Shown piece after piece: positions 21,101 through 49,404 of a DNA stretch of 64,000 nucleotides. How positions within the stretch are numbered: the first letter of the stretch is position 1; each line of letters opens with the position of its first letter. The notes under the pieces are model-generated. The model was not told the DNA's origin and did not search any database. It saw nothing but the letters and a program-made list of their open reading frames with translations. Source of the stretch: Tribonema minus. Lineage: Eukaryota > Sar > Xanthophyceae > Tribonematales > Tribonemataceae. Where the stretch lies: NCBI GenBank assembly GCA_017506865.1, contig JAFCMP010000035.1:868001-932000 (forward strand). The letters run 5' to 3'. Made by a program: the position numbers and the translations under genes.

Positions 21101-24100
21101 GGTCCCCGGGGGGCACTTGTCGCAGTGGGGGCCGCCGTAGCCGGGGGCGCACACTGCCGTCGAAAGAGCGGAAAGCGGGGAATGACACAAGTTGTGGTTT
21201 ACGTGTGGTGGTGATCCAGTGCGTGCTGCTTGAACTTCGCCCCTCGATCAAGTGATAAGCATTAATGTATTTTGGAGGCAGAGTATGCTGCGCGGTACTG
21301 TGTCCTGACAGACAGACAATAGCCGCATCTATGCGCCATAGGTTTGGATCCTGCCATGCGTGTTGATGTGCGTGCGCAATGACCGCGTGTCGCTGCACGA
21401 GCTCAGAACCCTCAATCGCTCACTACAAGCCCGGAGCTACGCTTGAGAATGTGTGTTGCGCATGTGGGGGGGTGGCAAAAATCGCGTATGCGCTCACAGA
21501 CAGGCGTGCACGAGCGGGATATCATCATGGCTGCTGGCACTTCCTGCACACAACGGCCGCGCAACATGCGCCGCGCTGTCTCGTTGCAGTGCTCAGCAGT
21601 GCACTGCAGTTCTCAACACGAAGGTCACCTCCTGGCACTCGCAGGGCGCCATGCGCAGCATTGCAACCGCCTAGCGAGCGCTGACTGCCACGTACCGTCG
21701 CAGGCGGTGCGGTCATCGTTGGGGAGCGTCCCCTCTGGGCAGTCGTCGCACGCGTCGCGCATGCCCCCTGGCGCCGCCTGCAGCCCTCCGCAGCGGGCGC
21801 ATGTGGGGGGCGCAGCTGCCGCCGGCGCTGCCGTTTCGCCGTCGGCGGCGGCGGCGATCTCGGGCACGCCGTAGCCGCCCAGGCAGACGCACTGCGTGCG
21901 GCATGGGGAGGAGGTCTCTCCGAGGGGGCAAGCTTGGGGGGGGGGGGAAGGGGGGGGAGGGGGGGAGGGGGGGGAGGGGGGGGGGGGTACGGGGTAAGTG
22001 TTGATTCAGGCAGTGTCGCAAGTTTTAGGGTTGGGATACAAAGAGCTGGCCAGGCGCGTCAGTATGTTTGGGTCACGTGCCGCACGACAGTAGCTAGCGC
22101 TGCTGCTGGCAGTGGCAGCAGCCAACAGCGCAGAAGCGTATTAACCAGCGACAGTCGCAGCGGCGGTTGCGGCCGTATTTGTGGAAATGGAAGCCTTTGG
22201 TTCAGAACCACTGGAACGTGTACAGAAGGCAGGGGAATGGGGGCGCTGCAGTTGTTGATAGTCTGATGCAAGGCAATGAGCCAGGCAGAGTGATGCAAGG
22301 TTTGTCGCCCCAGCGCCAGGGTGCTACCAAAGCGCGACGTATGCATATATGGCTGAAAACACGCGTCATGCGATCGTTAAGACTCCACAACACCAGCACA
22401 CCTTTGCAGGTATGCAGGTGTGCTACTCACACGTGGTTTTTGTGCTGTGCCTTACTGCACCAGTGCTGGGCGCGCGGCGCCCCCGCGGCAGCGCTCATAC
22501 TCAGCGCCGACACGCACTTCTGCCCGCGCTAGTTTCACGATACCAGCGCAAACAATAAAAGCTTGTCCTCTTCGGCACTGCTACTGCGTTACTACACCCT
22601 GCCTGGTACGTGTCGTTGCCTATCGCCCCCCTGTGCAGTAACGCTGCGCCGGAACGGACACGGCGCCCACTGCCTCAGTGCTCAGACTCAGTGCCATCAT
22701 GTGCCTTCGCACACGCTCTGACTGCAGCTGAGAGCACTGCAGAGTCTGAATATGCTGCAACTGCATTGCCGCACCCAGCCTGGCACTTCTGGTTGCTCAT
22801 CCATGCAGTACTCTGCGCCAGATACGGGTTAGGGCTAGGATTAAAGTTAGGGCTAGGGTTAAAGTTAGGGTAAGGGTTAGGGTGGTCGCTCGCCCGTGCA
22901 GTACGCTGCGCCAGATATGAGTTAGGGCTAGGGTTAGGATTAGGATTAGGGTTAACGCAGGGTCAGTATTACGGTCAGTGTGAGGGCAGTCGCTCACCCG
23001 TGCAGTACGACGCGCTGGCGCCGGACACGGTGCCCTCGCGGCAGTGCTCGCACTCTGCGCCTATGCCGCCGGGCGAGAACGTGCCGTCCTTGCACTCATC
23101 ACACTGGCGGCCGCCGTGGCCGGGTGCGCAGGCTGCGGGTTCAGGAACAGTACACAAACGGTACATGCACGCAGGCGGGAGGTCAGGAACAGAGCCATTT
23201 TTCACCTGTGCTATAGTTCAAGAGCGCGCTGGTTTCAGAATCAGTTGCGACTGTGTGCTGGGACGGAAAGAATGCGTGGGTCGTGTTGTCGATGCCGTGC
23301 TTGTAGCGGCATCGGCAGCCGCCGCCGTGGCCGCAGCGCGTCTGGACGCGTAACGGGGTGCAGACGCAACGCACACGTCGTCGTTTGCGTACACCATTCG
23401 CTGTGGCAGCGCGTGCGCTTCGGGCCTGGCACTGCATTCGCGGCTGCAGCGTGCCGCCCGTTGAGCGTGAAAGAGCGCATCTTCCGCGCAGCAGGACTCG
23501 TGCAGCGGCCATGTCAATTGTGCAAACACCACACAAACACAGCACGGATCCTTCGTGCCTATCGTTCGGAAGCAGGCTGCACCCACTGTCGCGGCGCGTA
23601 CGCTCACGGTTTGAACCAATCTCAAGAGTACGAATGTACAGCCTTGCGTGTACGCTCTCTGTACTGTATTCGCTGGTGGCATCGAGACCCCGCAGCGCCT
23701 CTGCCATACCGCCGCCACGTTGGATTGCGCAACTGGGTTCATACAGAACAACAACGCAACTCGTCATTCGTCCGCGCACGCCACTCACCATCGCAGCGCG
23801 TGTGCTCGGGGTCCGGCACCCTGTTGTCACGGCACGTCTCGCACGGCGCCGTGGAGCCGCCCTTGCTGTACGTGAGCTTGTCGCAGGGCGCGCAGTCCGC
23901 TCCGCCGTAGCCCGGCAGGCACACTGCGGCAAGCACAACAAATGAGATTCGATGAGCTTGGTAAGGGGGTGGGCTGGTAAGATCTCATGATGGGTGTGGA
24001 ATTGTCGGATGGCACTGCTCCGCCAAAGCCGGCAGGCACACTGGAGCAAGCACATCAAATGGGATCTGAGCCTCAGCCAAGGGCATAGTTGGGGGAGCGG

Positions 24101-45239: not shown

Positions 45240-45694
45240 TCACAACGGAAAGGTGAGGCCAGTAGATGGGCGGCATGGCAGGGCTGGGGCTCACGTGGGA
45301 AGGGCGGTGAGGCGTGACGTATGCGAGGTGTCAGGCACTCTCGGCGCTACTCCCATCCCCTGAACACACTTCCTTGTCCAACTGCTGCTTATGAGGTTTA
45401 CTGTGGCACCCATCCTCTGTCGAGGCGCGTAACCGGTGCGGTAGTGGCGTAAGCTTGGGGACGGGAGACTTTCCCCAAGCTGTGAGTTCATGCGAGGCGG
45501 CGCGTGGATGCGATACATGGGTCATGCCTGCAAGGACATCGCATTTATGCATCTCAGGGGATCTCTGGTTATCCCCTGTGTTTGCGCGGTGATCTGTGTG
45601 GGGGCTCGTGGAGTTCTGCGTCAGCGACTTCGTGTGCTTGCTCTGCGCTGTATCGGTGGCTTCTGATGGAGGTGAGCGCCCAGTGACCCGACGG

Positions 45695-45950
45695 CAGGTG
45701 GTCATGAAGGAGCACGGCTCTGCCGTGCTTGCTTTGTGCGTCTTGGTATGCGCAACCGGGGTGCTGTTGAGGTGCAGGCACTGGCGTTGCTCCTCACTGC
45801 GCCTCTGGCACTGTGAAGGTGGGTGTAGGTCATCAGGGCGGAGCTGCCATGCTTGCGCTTGTGCGTCTTGGCATGTGCGACGGGGTGCTGTTTGGGGTGC
45901 AGGCATTGGCGTTGCTCCTCACTGCGCCTCTGGCACCGTGAAGGTGGGGT
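45695..45950 (+). repeat. Two 127-bp tandem units before the ribozyme
   Basis: Units about 45695-45822 and 45823-45950 share GTGCGTCTTGG, GGGGTGCTGTT and GGCGTTGCTCCTCACTGCGC. The second begins GTAGGTCATCAGGGCGGAGC, which repeats the ribozyme substrate strand without the catalytic core. Confidence 0.85.
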
Positions 45951-46011
45951 TAGGTCATCAGGGCGGAGCTGACCACGCTGTCCTGATCTGATGAGCCGAA
46001 GGCGAAACCTA
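45951..46011 (+). ncRNA. Type III hammerhead ribozyme
   Basis: All catalytic parts are present in order. Stem III 5' strand TTAGG (45950-45954 region), cleavage triplet GTC (45954-45956), stem I 5' arm ATCAGG (45957-45962), loop, stem I 3' arm CCTGAT (45982-45987), core CTGATGA (45988-45994), stem II GCC-GAA-GGC (45995-46003), core GAAA (46004-46007), stem III 3' strand CCTA (46008-46011). Cleavage is predicted after C45956. Stem I is 6 perfect pairs, extendable by four more with two G-U pairs. Stem III has 5 pairs including A46007-T45955. The short stem III and open ends match type III hammerheads of retrozymes and viroid-like RNAs. Confidence 0.88.
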
Positions 46012-46020
46012 CTCTCTAAC

Positions 46021-46576
46021 GTGGTCACCAAATTAACAGCACACCTGCTTGACGCAGCATTGCGTGGTGTTTGTTTGCGCAGCAGGCATATACGATGAGT
46101 CTAGTGTTCACTGGGGCTGTAAGTGCCCAGTAATTGAGTATGCCCACGGCCCTCATGTGGTTGTGCTGTTCGAGCTGCAACGACATATTTCCGGGGCATC
46201 ATCTGATAATGTGGCGTCGATCAATCTGAGGCAGGACTATAACCTAACTTCATCAGTTGCATGTGATGTGGATCTTCACCAGCCAAGCACAAGTCCCATC
46301 ATGACACCGCATTTGTCGTATACATTTCTGAAAGGCTTGTTCGCTGCATGCTGCCCCTGCACTGCTTACCTTTCACGATCATCCTGTCAACTACCTATCT
46401 GTAGTTCTACCGTGTGGTGTAGTTTTGCTCTTTTCGTCAGTCTGCCCACGTGAAAGCGGTTTCACTGCAACTGAGTCTCATATTCAACAGCAAAGAAGGT
46501 GCCTTTCCCTCGCATCAGGGACAGCAGTGCTCCCGATGCGTGTGTATGTACCAAGGACAGACGTGCTGTGCACTGG
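46021..46576 (+). other. Unassigned stretch with one open frame
   Basis: An open frame of 134 codons (46049-46453) has no motif I recognise and no clear splice context. It may be an exon of an unknown gene or chance. Confidence 0.25.
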
Positions 46577-47099: not shown

Positions 47100-47310
47100 G
47101 AGCAGCGCTCACGCTTGCTACATGTGTACATATGCCCCTGGTAAGGGCAGCGCTCAGCCGTGGGGAAGGCAGCGCTCAGTAGCGGTACGGCAGCGCTCAG
47201 CAGTAGAAATCAGTGCTCAACAGCAGTAGGAAGGGCAGCGCTCAGCAGCAGTACGGCAGCGCTCAGCAGCACTGAGGCAGTGCTCAACAACAGTGTACGG
47301 CAGCGTCGGC
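47100..47310 (+). repeat. GCAGCGCTCA minisatellite
   Basis: About ten irregularly spaced copies of GGCAGCGCTCAGCAG or GCAGTGCTCAAC. The reverse complement, TGAGCGCTGCC, is the extended donor context of several exons of the large gene. Confidence 0.8.
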
Positions 47311-47323
47311 ACGGCGGCGCGCC

Positions 47324-49404
47324 GTGACGCCGGAGCTGCGACTGCAGGACGTGCTGCTGTTCACGCTTGACCAGCGGCGCTGCGCGCCAGGCATCGCCGT
47401 TAGCCGCGACGGCCGCACCGCGCGCCTCATCGCCAACAACGGCCGCTGCGCCGTGTTTGGCAGCGTCGGCTTTGCGCAGGGCGTTTACTACTGGGAGGTG
47501 AAGGGGCAGCAGGCGGAGCCGGGGTGCGTGTTCATAGGCGTGTCGGAGGCGTCACCGCGCGGCGGCGGCAGCGAGCGGGCGGCGGCGGCCGTAGCGCGCA
47601 TGGCGCTGGCCCGGCAAGGGCTGTCAACTGCCGCGCGACGAACTGAACGCGCTGCGCCCGCCGTCCTCTTCCCCGTCATCGGCATGCGCAAGCCCGGCGA
47701 CAGCGTCATGCTCATGAACAGGTGGCTCGGCTGGCCCGGCGCGCATGCCGCCCCCGCCGCCGTTGACGACGCCGCGGCGACGGCGGAGCTCCTGCGCACC
47801 TGGGACTTGCCCACGCAAGCAGCGCCACCCGCTGCCACCACGCCACCGTCGGCGCTGCCGCTGCGGCGGTGGCTGCTGCGTGAGGCGTGGCAGGAGAGCG
47901 CGTGATGGCGCGAGGGGCGCTGGCGCCGCGGCATGACGCGCGCGAGACCCACGGCGCGCGTCGACTATGACTGATGCCCCATCACGTGCGCGGCGGCGGC
48001 GCTGCGCCTCCGCCTGCCGCGCGCGAGCTGTTTGCGGGCGACGGCGTGCGCGCGCGCGCTGAAGTCGCCGGAGCCGCTCCTGACTTTCGGCGCACACGCG
48101 CGGCGGCGTGCCAATGAGCTGCGCGGCGGCGGCAGCGGCGAGGCCGCCGGCGAGGCCGCCGGCGACAGCGCCAGCGGCGCCGCGTGGTGCTGGTGCGGGG
48201 GGGGACGCAGACAGCGTGGAGCTCGTGAGCGGCGCCGCCGGAACCCCCGCGTGGGCGTTCAATGTCCCCCTTGGAGCGCTGCTGTGGAGCGCGGGCGCGC
48301 GCCTCGAGGTGGCATACAGCGGCGGCACGGTCGTGCACGACAGCGCGGAGGGTGGAGGCCAGCGCGCAGGTCGGGGAGCTGGCGGCGGGCACCGTGGTGG
48401 ATGCGCTGGAGTCGCGGCGCAGCATGAGCAGCGCGTCGTGCGCTTGCGCGTCACGTGCGCCGGCGTCGAGGGCTGGATCAGCGAGCGCATCAACGGTGAG
48501 GGTGAGGAGCCCATCGTCAGGCGACTCCCGCCGCAGCAGCAGGCCGAAGGCGAGCCGCCACGCCCCACCGCCGCAGCGGACGCGGACGGCAGCGTCGTCG
48601 CCCCCGTGGCCGCCTGGGAGCAGCGCGTGCGCGCGGCGGGCGGCGCGGACGCGAAGCGCTGGCAGCGCTGCGGCAGCGCTGCCGGCGGCGGCGACGACGA
48701 CTACGCCAAGGGGGAGGGACTGATGACGCAGGAGGCGTTCGCGGCGCTGGCGTGCGACACTTGGGCGGCGGCGCAAAGTGGAGCGCCGAGGCGGACATAC
48801 ACGTGGCGGAGGCGCTCAATACGCTCGGCGACGCGCTCGGTGAGGAGCAGGCGAACCTGCCATGGCTTGCGGTCAAGGCAGCGGTGACCGCGACATCTGC
48901 CGGCGCCGCGGCCGCCGGCAAGCGCGCCGGTCTTGACGAGGCGCTGCTGCACGCCACCGTCGGCAATTTGATGGCGTGCATGAGCGTGCTGTTCAATGCG
49001 CGTGCCGCCTGCGCGCTGCCGCTTTTACGCCTCACGCTGCCGGAAGGAGGACTGGTGGCAGCACGGCAGCGGCGAGGGTGTCAACGACTACGGCGGCCAG
49101 CGCCGCGCGGTCTCGATCCGCGCGCGCTCGCACGTGCGCACGTTCTGGGCGTGAGGACCTCGCGCCCGCGGAGCGCGCCGCGCTGCTGCGCCTGCCGCGC
49201 AGCCGCCGCAACTCGTTCCGTATCCAGGGCGGCGCGCGCAATTGCTCCGATGCGTACCTGCCCCACGCGCAGACGTGCGCCTTCTCGCTGAGCCTGCCGG
49301 CGCACACGTCGTGTGGCGCGCTGCGCGAGTAGCTGCGCTTCGCCATCGCCAACAGCCAGAACGTGGACGTGGACGTGTGCCTGCACAACGCCAGGGGTTG
49401 GTGA
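47324..49404 (+). pseudogene. Intronless SPRY-HECT E3 ubiquitin ligase relic
   Basis: A SPRY-like segment opens the region (APGIAVSRDGRTAR, then FAQGVYYWEVKG and CVFIGVSEA, 47390-47550). Later come VVRLRVTCAGVEGWISERI (near 48440) and WSAEADIHVAEALN (near 48780). The last part is a HECT C-lobe: SHVRTFW (near 49120), then LPHAQTCAFSLSLP with the expected catalytic Cys codon at 49276-49278, and LRFAIANSQ. HECT enzymes pass ubiquitin through that Cys. The coding sense moves between frames at least four times (near 47630, 48355, 48420 and 48775, again before 49140). TGA closes the first frame at 47903-47905, and TAG at 49330-49332 stands where HECT proteins usually have Lys. Most of the HECT N-lobe is absent. 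The layout resembles very large SPRY-containing HECT ligases. Lack of introns suggests a processed copy, but sequence errors could mimic some frameshifts. Confidence 0.7.

Follow-up and report, generated by a model that had tools for sequence, protein, structure and literature searches.

Genomic hammerhead ribozymes of plants and animals are mostly tied to mobile elements, according to PMC7761336, and PMC4918200 also reports isolated hammerheads in algae. In the usual type III form, stem I has 6 bp and its 6-8-nt loop contacts a 4-nt loop II (PMC7936874). Pseudoknotted hammerheads have been described as well; PMC3088659 and PMC7936874 describe them as joining stem or loop I to stem or loop II or, in type II hammerheads, as joining loop I to a tail next to stem II. 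Plant LTR retrozymes, as described in PMC4918200, are 400-1000-bp units between ribozymes, with 300-400-bp LTRs, 4-bp target duplications, a primer site and a polypurine tract. Among the papers listed in literature searches, none was recognisable from its title or the opening lines of its abstract as a report on hammerheads in red-lineage algae.

Here we analysed a window, the whole stretch of 64,000 nucleotides of DNA, in which one site (45951-46011) is, judged by its predicted structure, a genuine type III hammerhead belonging to a family with two subfamilies, A and B. The family resembles the type III hammerheads of Rfam RF00008 in stem order, in the CUGANGA and GAAA core, in a GUC or GUU site and in an open stem III, and differs in its 3-bp stem II with a 3-4-nt loop, its 10-bp stem I and a tail beyond stem III that forms a pseudoknot with loop I. 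As in the hammerheads with pseudoknots, where it stabilises the fold, the pseudoknot is a Watson-Crick helix from loop I; going by the descriptions in the available texts (PMC3088659, PMC7936874), the family is set apart by a loop I partner that lies beyond stem III. Type III hammerheads, a noncoding nature and occurrence singly or as close pairs are shared with the plant LTR retrozymes of PMC4918200, whereas the units here measure 223-495 nt, the repeat in subfamily A is the ribozyme module only and no primer site was found. Metazoan non-LTR retrozymes are similar in their short units and in having no LTR, but according to PMC7761336 their hammerheads are of type I and sit in multicopy tandem repeats of ~150-300 bp.

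Anatomy of the hammerhead

Inspection of the sequence identified a full type III hammerhead on the forward strand, with every core position present. Its parts, together with a fourth helix, are the following.

45951-45955 with 46007-46011, forward strand: stem III (UAGGU/ACCUA), read from the sequence; 5 of the 6 stem III pairs of the family are kept here
45954-45956, forward strand: cleavage triplet GUC, read from the sequence; predicted cut between 45956 and 45957
45957-45966 with 45978-45987, forward strand: stem I, 10 of 10 pairs in the window copy
45967-45977, forward strand: loop I, within stem I (45957-45987)
45988-45994, forward strand: conserved core CUGAUGA, read from the sequence
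45995-45997 with 46001-46003, forward strand: stem II (GCC-GAA-GGC), 3 of 3 pairs in the window copy
46004-46007, forward strand: GAAA, read from the sequence, followed by the 3' strand of stem III, ACCUA (46007-46011)
46021-46027, forward strand: 3' tail strand GUGGUCA, 7 of 7 pairs with loop I UGACCAC (45970-45976), forming the fourth helix, a pseudoknot

The first-pass annotation had claimed a complete type III hammerhead here, with CUGAUGA, GAAA and GUC and with three paired stems, stem II being made of three G-C pairs, and all of these elements were found (GCC/GGC in stem II). The extent that it gave holds for the hammerhead itself but is short at the 3' border: the conserved module spans ~83 nt, comprising the three hammerhead stems and the pseudoknot, and reaches about 46031, including the tail strand.

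A strict type III descriptor, defined by CUGANGA, a stem I of five or more pairs, a stem II of three or more pairs that closes onto GAAA, a UH cleavage site and a stem III, matched the window once, at this site, and matched none of 300 dinucleotide shuffles on both strands. Thermodynamic folding of the lone 61-mer was no better than that of shuffles (z = -0.77). When the module is folded in full, the hammerhead structure, taken without the tail, lies 2.6 kcal/mol above the nested minimum, the pseudoknot standing outside that calculation. Tandem Repeats Finder reported a 125-bp tandem duplication (2.1 copies, 45720-45979, forward strand), a direct repeat at 87%, whose first unit repeats the substrate (5') half of the hammerhead but lacks the core. 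Because the substrate half is thereby repeated upstream, the core might also pair with a second, distant cleavage site.

The Rfam covariance check proposed in the first-pass annotation gave a weak result. A permissive scan of 501 bases returned a weak RF00008 match (25.4 bits, E = 0.0037), which is below the gathering cut-off of 48.5; at the gathering score nothing was reported in the window, and in a permissive scan of 24,783 bases the window copy was absent at E ≤ 2. A genome-wide RF00008 search gave no match among the 68 of 21,833 candidates that were scored. Across the family, two of the 12 subfamily A copies appeared at E ≤ 2 and none of the five subfamily B copies at E ≤ 1; the best copy scored 29.5 bits, and no scanned copy reached the cut-off. 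The RF00008 gathering score is a curated threshold and does not define a structure. We rejected Rfam as the sole judge, since the structure is complete despite a score below that threshold.

A dispersed ribozyme family

The genome (158 Mb, 554 contigs) was searched with the window region, a relative and a divergent relative as queries, which gave 12 loci. The hammerhead had been described as part of a dispersed repeat, and homologous copies at 11 further loci bear this out. We built a family covariance model from nine copies and ran it over the window and 35 fetched loci, 36 sources in all. It returned 19 matches, two of them duplicates of the C164 places, leaving 17 distinct copies at the 12 loci; this number is a lower bound, the model having been run on the fetched loci rather than the whole genome. 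E-values were ≤ 2.3e-12 for 16 of the 17, nine of which had served to build the model, and 0.06 for one weak, decayed copy. The copies divide as follows.

Subfamily A, 12 copies at 8 loci: C35 (the window), C52a (two), C52b (two), C74, C146, C223, C532a (two) and C532b (two)
Subfamily B, 5 copies: C164 (two), C279, C268 and C91

At five of the 12 loci, two ribozymes lie close together, 223-495 nt apart. The second ribozyme is damaged in two of four cases in subfamily A: that of C52b is decayed, and that of C532a has no intact cleavage triplet. In the C223 copy, stem III is broken and the tail is unmatched (a truncated match). Among the 17 copies, CUGANGA and GAAA are each present in 16, the cleavage site reads GUC or GUU in 15, and 13 pass the strict descriptor; C146, C223 and the second copies of C532a and C52b fail it. 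Most copies are very likely capable of self-cleavage.

A loose core pattern occurs at 43 places in the genome, against 17 for the reversed pattern, and 10 of the 43 belong to this family. At 23 of the 33 other places, the family model found no match, and 20 of those 23 were also without an Rfam hammerhead. Further hammerhead families are possible in this genome, because the loose pattern exceeds its reversed form (43 places against 17) and the checks covered 23 of the 33 places outside the family. Three patterns searched in viral contigs gave no match. One pattern match in a bacterial draft genome, from the search of genome contigs, had no family-model match and was rejected as chance.

The earlier description of the genome as protist-like agrees with what can be read of the host. 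The genome holds 92 matches to chlorophyll-binding domains. One light-harvesting stretch, compared with solved structures, matched fucoxanthin chlorophyll a/c proteins best (FCP-D, E = 3.5e-31), and we take the matched FCP-D-type proteins to be those of diatoms. Because its best matches are fucoxanthin-type proteins, this stretch indicates that the host is an alga, probably a secondary alga of the red lineage rather than the green alga considered at first.

Covariation and a probable pseudoknot

To compare the copies independently of the model, 15 of them were aligned with MAFFT without a structure model, omitting the decayed second copy of C52b and the truncated C223 copy. Under the four helices, 96.9% of 389 cells pair, compared with 27-43% for slid versions. 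Both sides change in five pairs (20 cells), of which stem I contributes two, and stem II, stem III and the loop I-tail helix one each. In the five subfamily B copies, stem III shows a compensatory change from A-U to G-C, and the middle pair of stem II changes from C-G to G-C. Stem I has both-side changes in two pairs and one-side changes only in four. None of 500 shuffles of the 15-copy alignment matched the covariation score, the paired percentage or the count of double-change cells, whereas 127 of 500 reached the number of double-change pairs, which is therefore no excess over shuffles. The independent events are few, because most double changes come from the split between subfamilies A and B; for the nine subfamily A copies alone, 10 of 500 shuffles reach the covariation score, a modest support. 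Fitting all 17 copies to the model gives seven double-change pairs (24 cells), two of which come from the decayed second copy of C52b alone.

A chance resemblance without catalytic meaning would fit the Rfam score under the cut-off, but it is contradicted by the family and its covariation, that is, by 17 copies with compensatory changes, and by the 0 of 300 shuffles that matched the descriptor; we consider it hardly credible.

The fourth helix was assessed separately, its pairs having been excluded from the family search model. All seven loop I-tail pairs form in 10 of the 17 copies, six in four, five in two and none in C223, so that at least five of seven form in 16 of 17. For the inner six pairs, all 54 cells are kept in the nine model copies and 89 of 90 in the 15 aligned copies; the outermost pair is kept in only 10 of 15. 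One pair changes from C-G to U-A in C74 and C146 and to U-G in the second C532b copy. The tail belongs to the module, because the similarity between paired subfamily A ribozymes stops close to it. It is likely that loop I forms a pseudoknot with the tail that follows stem III. With a loop II of only 3-4 nt, the tail helix would replace the contact between loops I and II, and we infer that it aids activity.

Ribozymes and spacers compared

We compared the paired loci of subfamily A across their ribozymes and the spacers between them. Between C52a and C532b, identity over 83 nt is 92% for the first ribozymes and 96% for the second, and 81% across 600 nt of upstream sequence, whereas the spacers align only at shuffle level (z 0.6). 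Likewise, C52a and C532a have ribozymes at 93% and 90% identity and a spacer z of 0.5. C532a and C532b form a younger pair, and their spacer can still be aligned (z 8.4). The C52a and C532b second ribozymes are nearest each other (0.96, compared with 0.89-0.92 to first ribozymes), and the damaged second copy of C532a is nearest to these two (0.90, compared with 0.84-0.88); the second copy of C52b lies at 0.60-0.68 to all others. Because the second ribozymes group together, the two-ribozyme unit seems older than the spread of these loci.

At C52a and C532b, the ribozymes seem to have outlasted the spacer. The simplest reading of this contrast suggests selection on the predicted cleavage. Gene conversion between modules could mimic such selection. 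Selection is also countered by the damage in subfamily A, where two of four second ribozymes are affected, as expected of decaying repeats.

The same comparison bears on a retrozyme-like non-autonomous retroelement, whose paired hammerheads would excise the 223-495-nt unit for a ligase to circularise and for a retroelement reverse transcriptase to copy elsewhere. Dispersal over 12 loci, two ribozymes at five of them, the existence of damaged copies and the lack of a coding domain above the cut-off around the window site all speak for such an element, and reverse transcriptases are abundant, with at least 151 matches in the genome (150 of 1416 candidates scored). The best case is C164, where two ~220-nt units in tandem hold the ribozyme pair and remain alike beyond the ribozyme (76% over 232 columns). 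However, the C52a and C532b spacer, the part that would circulate, is unalignable where the ribozymes are conserved, the conserved upstream block is not part of the unit expected to form circles, only 12 loci were found, and two of these, C268 and C91, resemble paralogous loci (81% over ~1.8 kb). We therefore regard this explanation as unlikely.

Direct repeats of 300-400 bp around the ribozymes were absent: paired ribozymes repeat ~80 nt in subfamily A and ~220 nt in the C164 pair of subfamily B. Because the repeat common to paired ribozymes is the ~80-nt module only, subfamily A has no LTR. The borders of the elements are indistinct in these diverged copies. A tRNA-Met primer site, sought as a 12-mer, had a best match with 3-4 mismatches at all eight subfamily A loci, against a shuffle baseline averaging 3.24 mismatches (50 shuffles of one locus). 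Type I hammerheads in tandem repeats, the trait of metazoan retrozymes, were not found either, as the 17 copies fit a type III model and pairs occur at only 5 of the 12 loci. The first-pass annotation had taken the ribozyme as the mark of a retrozyme; this was not supported, with neither an LTR nor a primer site found in subfamily A and the spacer unconserved where the ribozymes are conserved (C52a compared with C532a and C532b). Since subfamily A has neither feature and conservation sits in the ribozymes and the upstream block, we do not file the family as a retrozyme. It may derive from a retrozyme, or work partly like one.

Genomic surroundings

Conservation extends upstream of the ribozyme into a block with no detected coding domain.

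45453-45700, forward strand: upstream conserved block, with its most conserved core at about 45600-45637

The block is 73-76% identical to C146, C74 and C223 and is shared over 61 nt with C532a and C532b; among C52a, C532a and C532b, identity is 75-83%. In an alignment of seven loci, the upstream region extends up to ~600 nt before the first ribozyme, on the same strand, at seven of the eight subfamily A loci. It was found neither at C52b nor next to the five subfamily B copies. The block matched no Rfam family. Consensus folding places the whole block 2.9 s.d. below column shuffles, although its covariation term is unfavourable; the block has no covariation support, and two sub-blocks fold at shuffle level. 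Otherwise, the 10-kb surroundings of subfamily A copies share only short patches resembling dispersed repeats.

We searched 20 ORFs near the ribozymes, 10 of them around the window site and 10 drawn from 45 ORFs of at least 180 aa at ribozyme loci, and found no transposon domain; around the window site, no ORF had a coding domain above the cut-off. One forward-strand ORF there, at 47276-47902, has a weak SPRY match (E = 0.092, below the cut-off).

The neighbouring ORFs bear on whether the hammerhead is a regulatory ribozyme in an intron or UTR of host protein genes, cutting their pre-mRNA. The window copy lies ~1.3 kb upstream of the SPRY-like ORF, on the same strand, and C146 has an upstream same-strand ORF with a thioredoxin match. 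Yet the few neighbouring ORFs that bear domains differ from locus to locus, and the WD40 ORF at C223 is on the opposite strand, which makes such a regulatory role improbable. Even less probable is a UTR left over from an autonomous retroelement, for instance one of the Penelope-like elements. Hammerheads are reported in such elements in PMC7761336, which describes them, however, as type I; no RVT_1 match lies within 10 kb of a ribozyme among the matches listed (at least 151, from 150 of 1416 candidates scored), and the 20 ORFs above are devoid of transposon domains.

The subfamily B loci have surroundings of their own. C268 (L079) and C91 (L080), alike over ~1.8 kb, carry tandem arrays of ~180-200-nt units upstream of the ribozyme; 19 of the 20 genome matches of this unit are at C91 (12) and C268 (7). 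At C91, the ribozyme and the downstream part of its locus are ~25 kb apart (C91:115697-140820). This interval contains a reverse transcriptase match and has the look of a large insertion immediately downstream of the ribozyme.

Downstream of the C164 pair, a histone stem-loop-like hairpin followed by ACCC was observed (L072:4686-4730, reverse strand; RF00032, 23.8 bits, cut-off 34), and C268 keeps a similar sequence with one pair fewer. Thirteen histone motifs were absent from the 10 loci scanned, and a strict hairpin scan found no histone-like hairpin beside the ribozymes of loci other than C164; a histone link was therefore dropped.

Interstitial TTAGGG-type telomere repeats recur in the genome, for example at 22826-22883 of the window, and one such array lies ~600 nt upstream of the C164 ribozyme pair (L072). 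In addition, a ~92-nt repeat, 97-99% identical, is present at three ribozyme loci (L044, L045 and L049), at C532a between both ribozymes.

Discussion

The explanation that we favour is that the family gives rise to ribozyme-processed noncoding transcripts; taken as a whole, we give it an even chance of being correct. A noncoding transcript would be made through the upstream block, and the module would fold co-transcriptionally. The loop I-tail helix would lock stem I, in place of the usual contact between loops I and II, and the RNA would cut itself after GUC. The upstream RNA would be left with a 2',3'-cyclic phosphate, and the proposal is therefore that the ribozyme sets its 3' end. At the five loci with a second ribozyme 223-495 nt further on, this copy may serve as a back-up, or may release the spacer. 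Transcription, cleavage and function alike we infer from the DNA, and a putative role in 3'-end formation of noncoding RNA is accordingly a possibility that falls somewhat short of an even chance.

A more specific version of these ribozyme-processed transcripts is put forward tentatively: a noncoding RNA gene family maintained by its red-lineage algal host, whose 3' ends would be formed by one or two hammerheads in place of protein machinery, with a pseudoknot from loop I to beyond stem III, an architecture absent from the descriptions in the available portions of PMC3088659 and PMC7936874.

If this is true, ribozymes that stayed intact while the intervening DNA was lost would represent a hammerhead retained to serve the cell. 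Should the loop I-tail helix aid catalysis, it would be another way to satisfy the need of hammerheads for a tertiary contact. As no scanned copy reached the Rfam cut-off, such forms would escape searches with type III hammerhead models.
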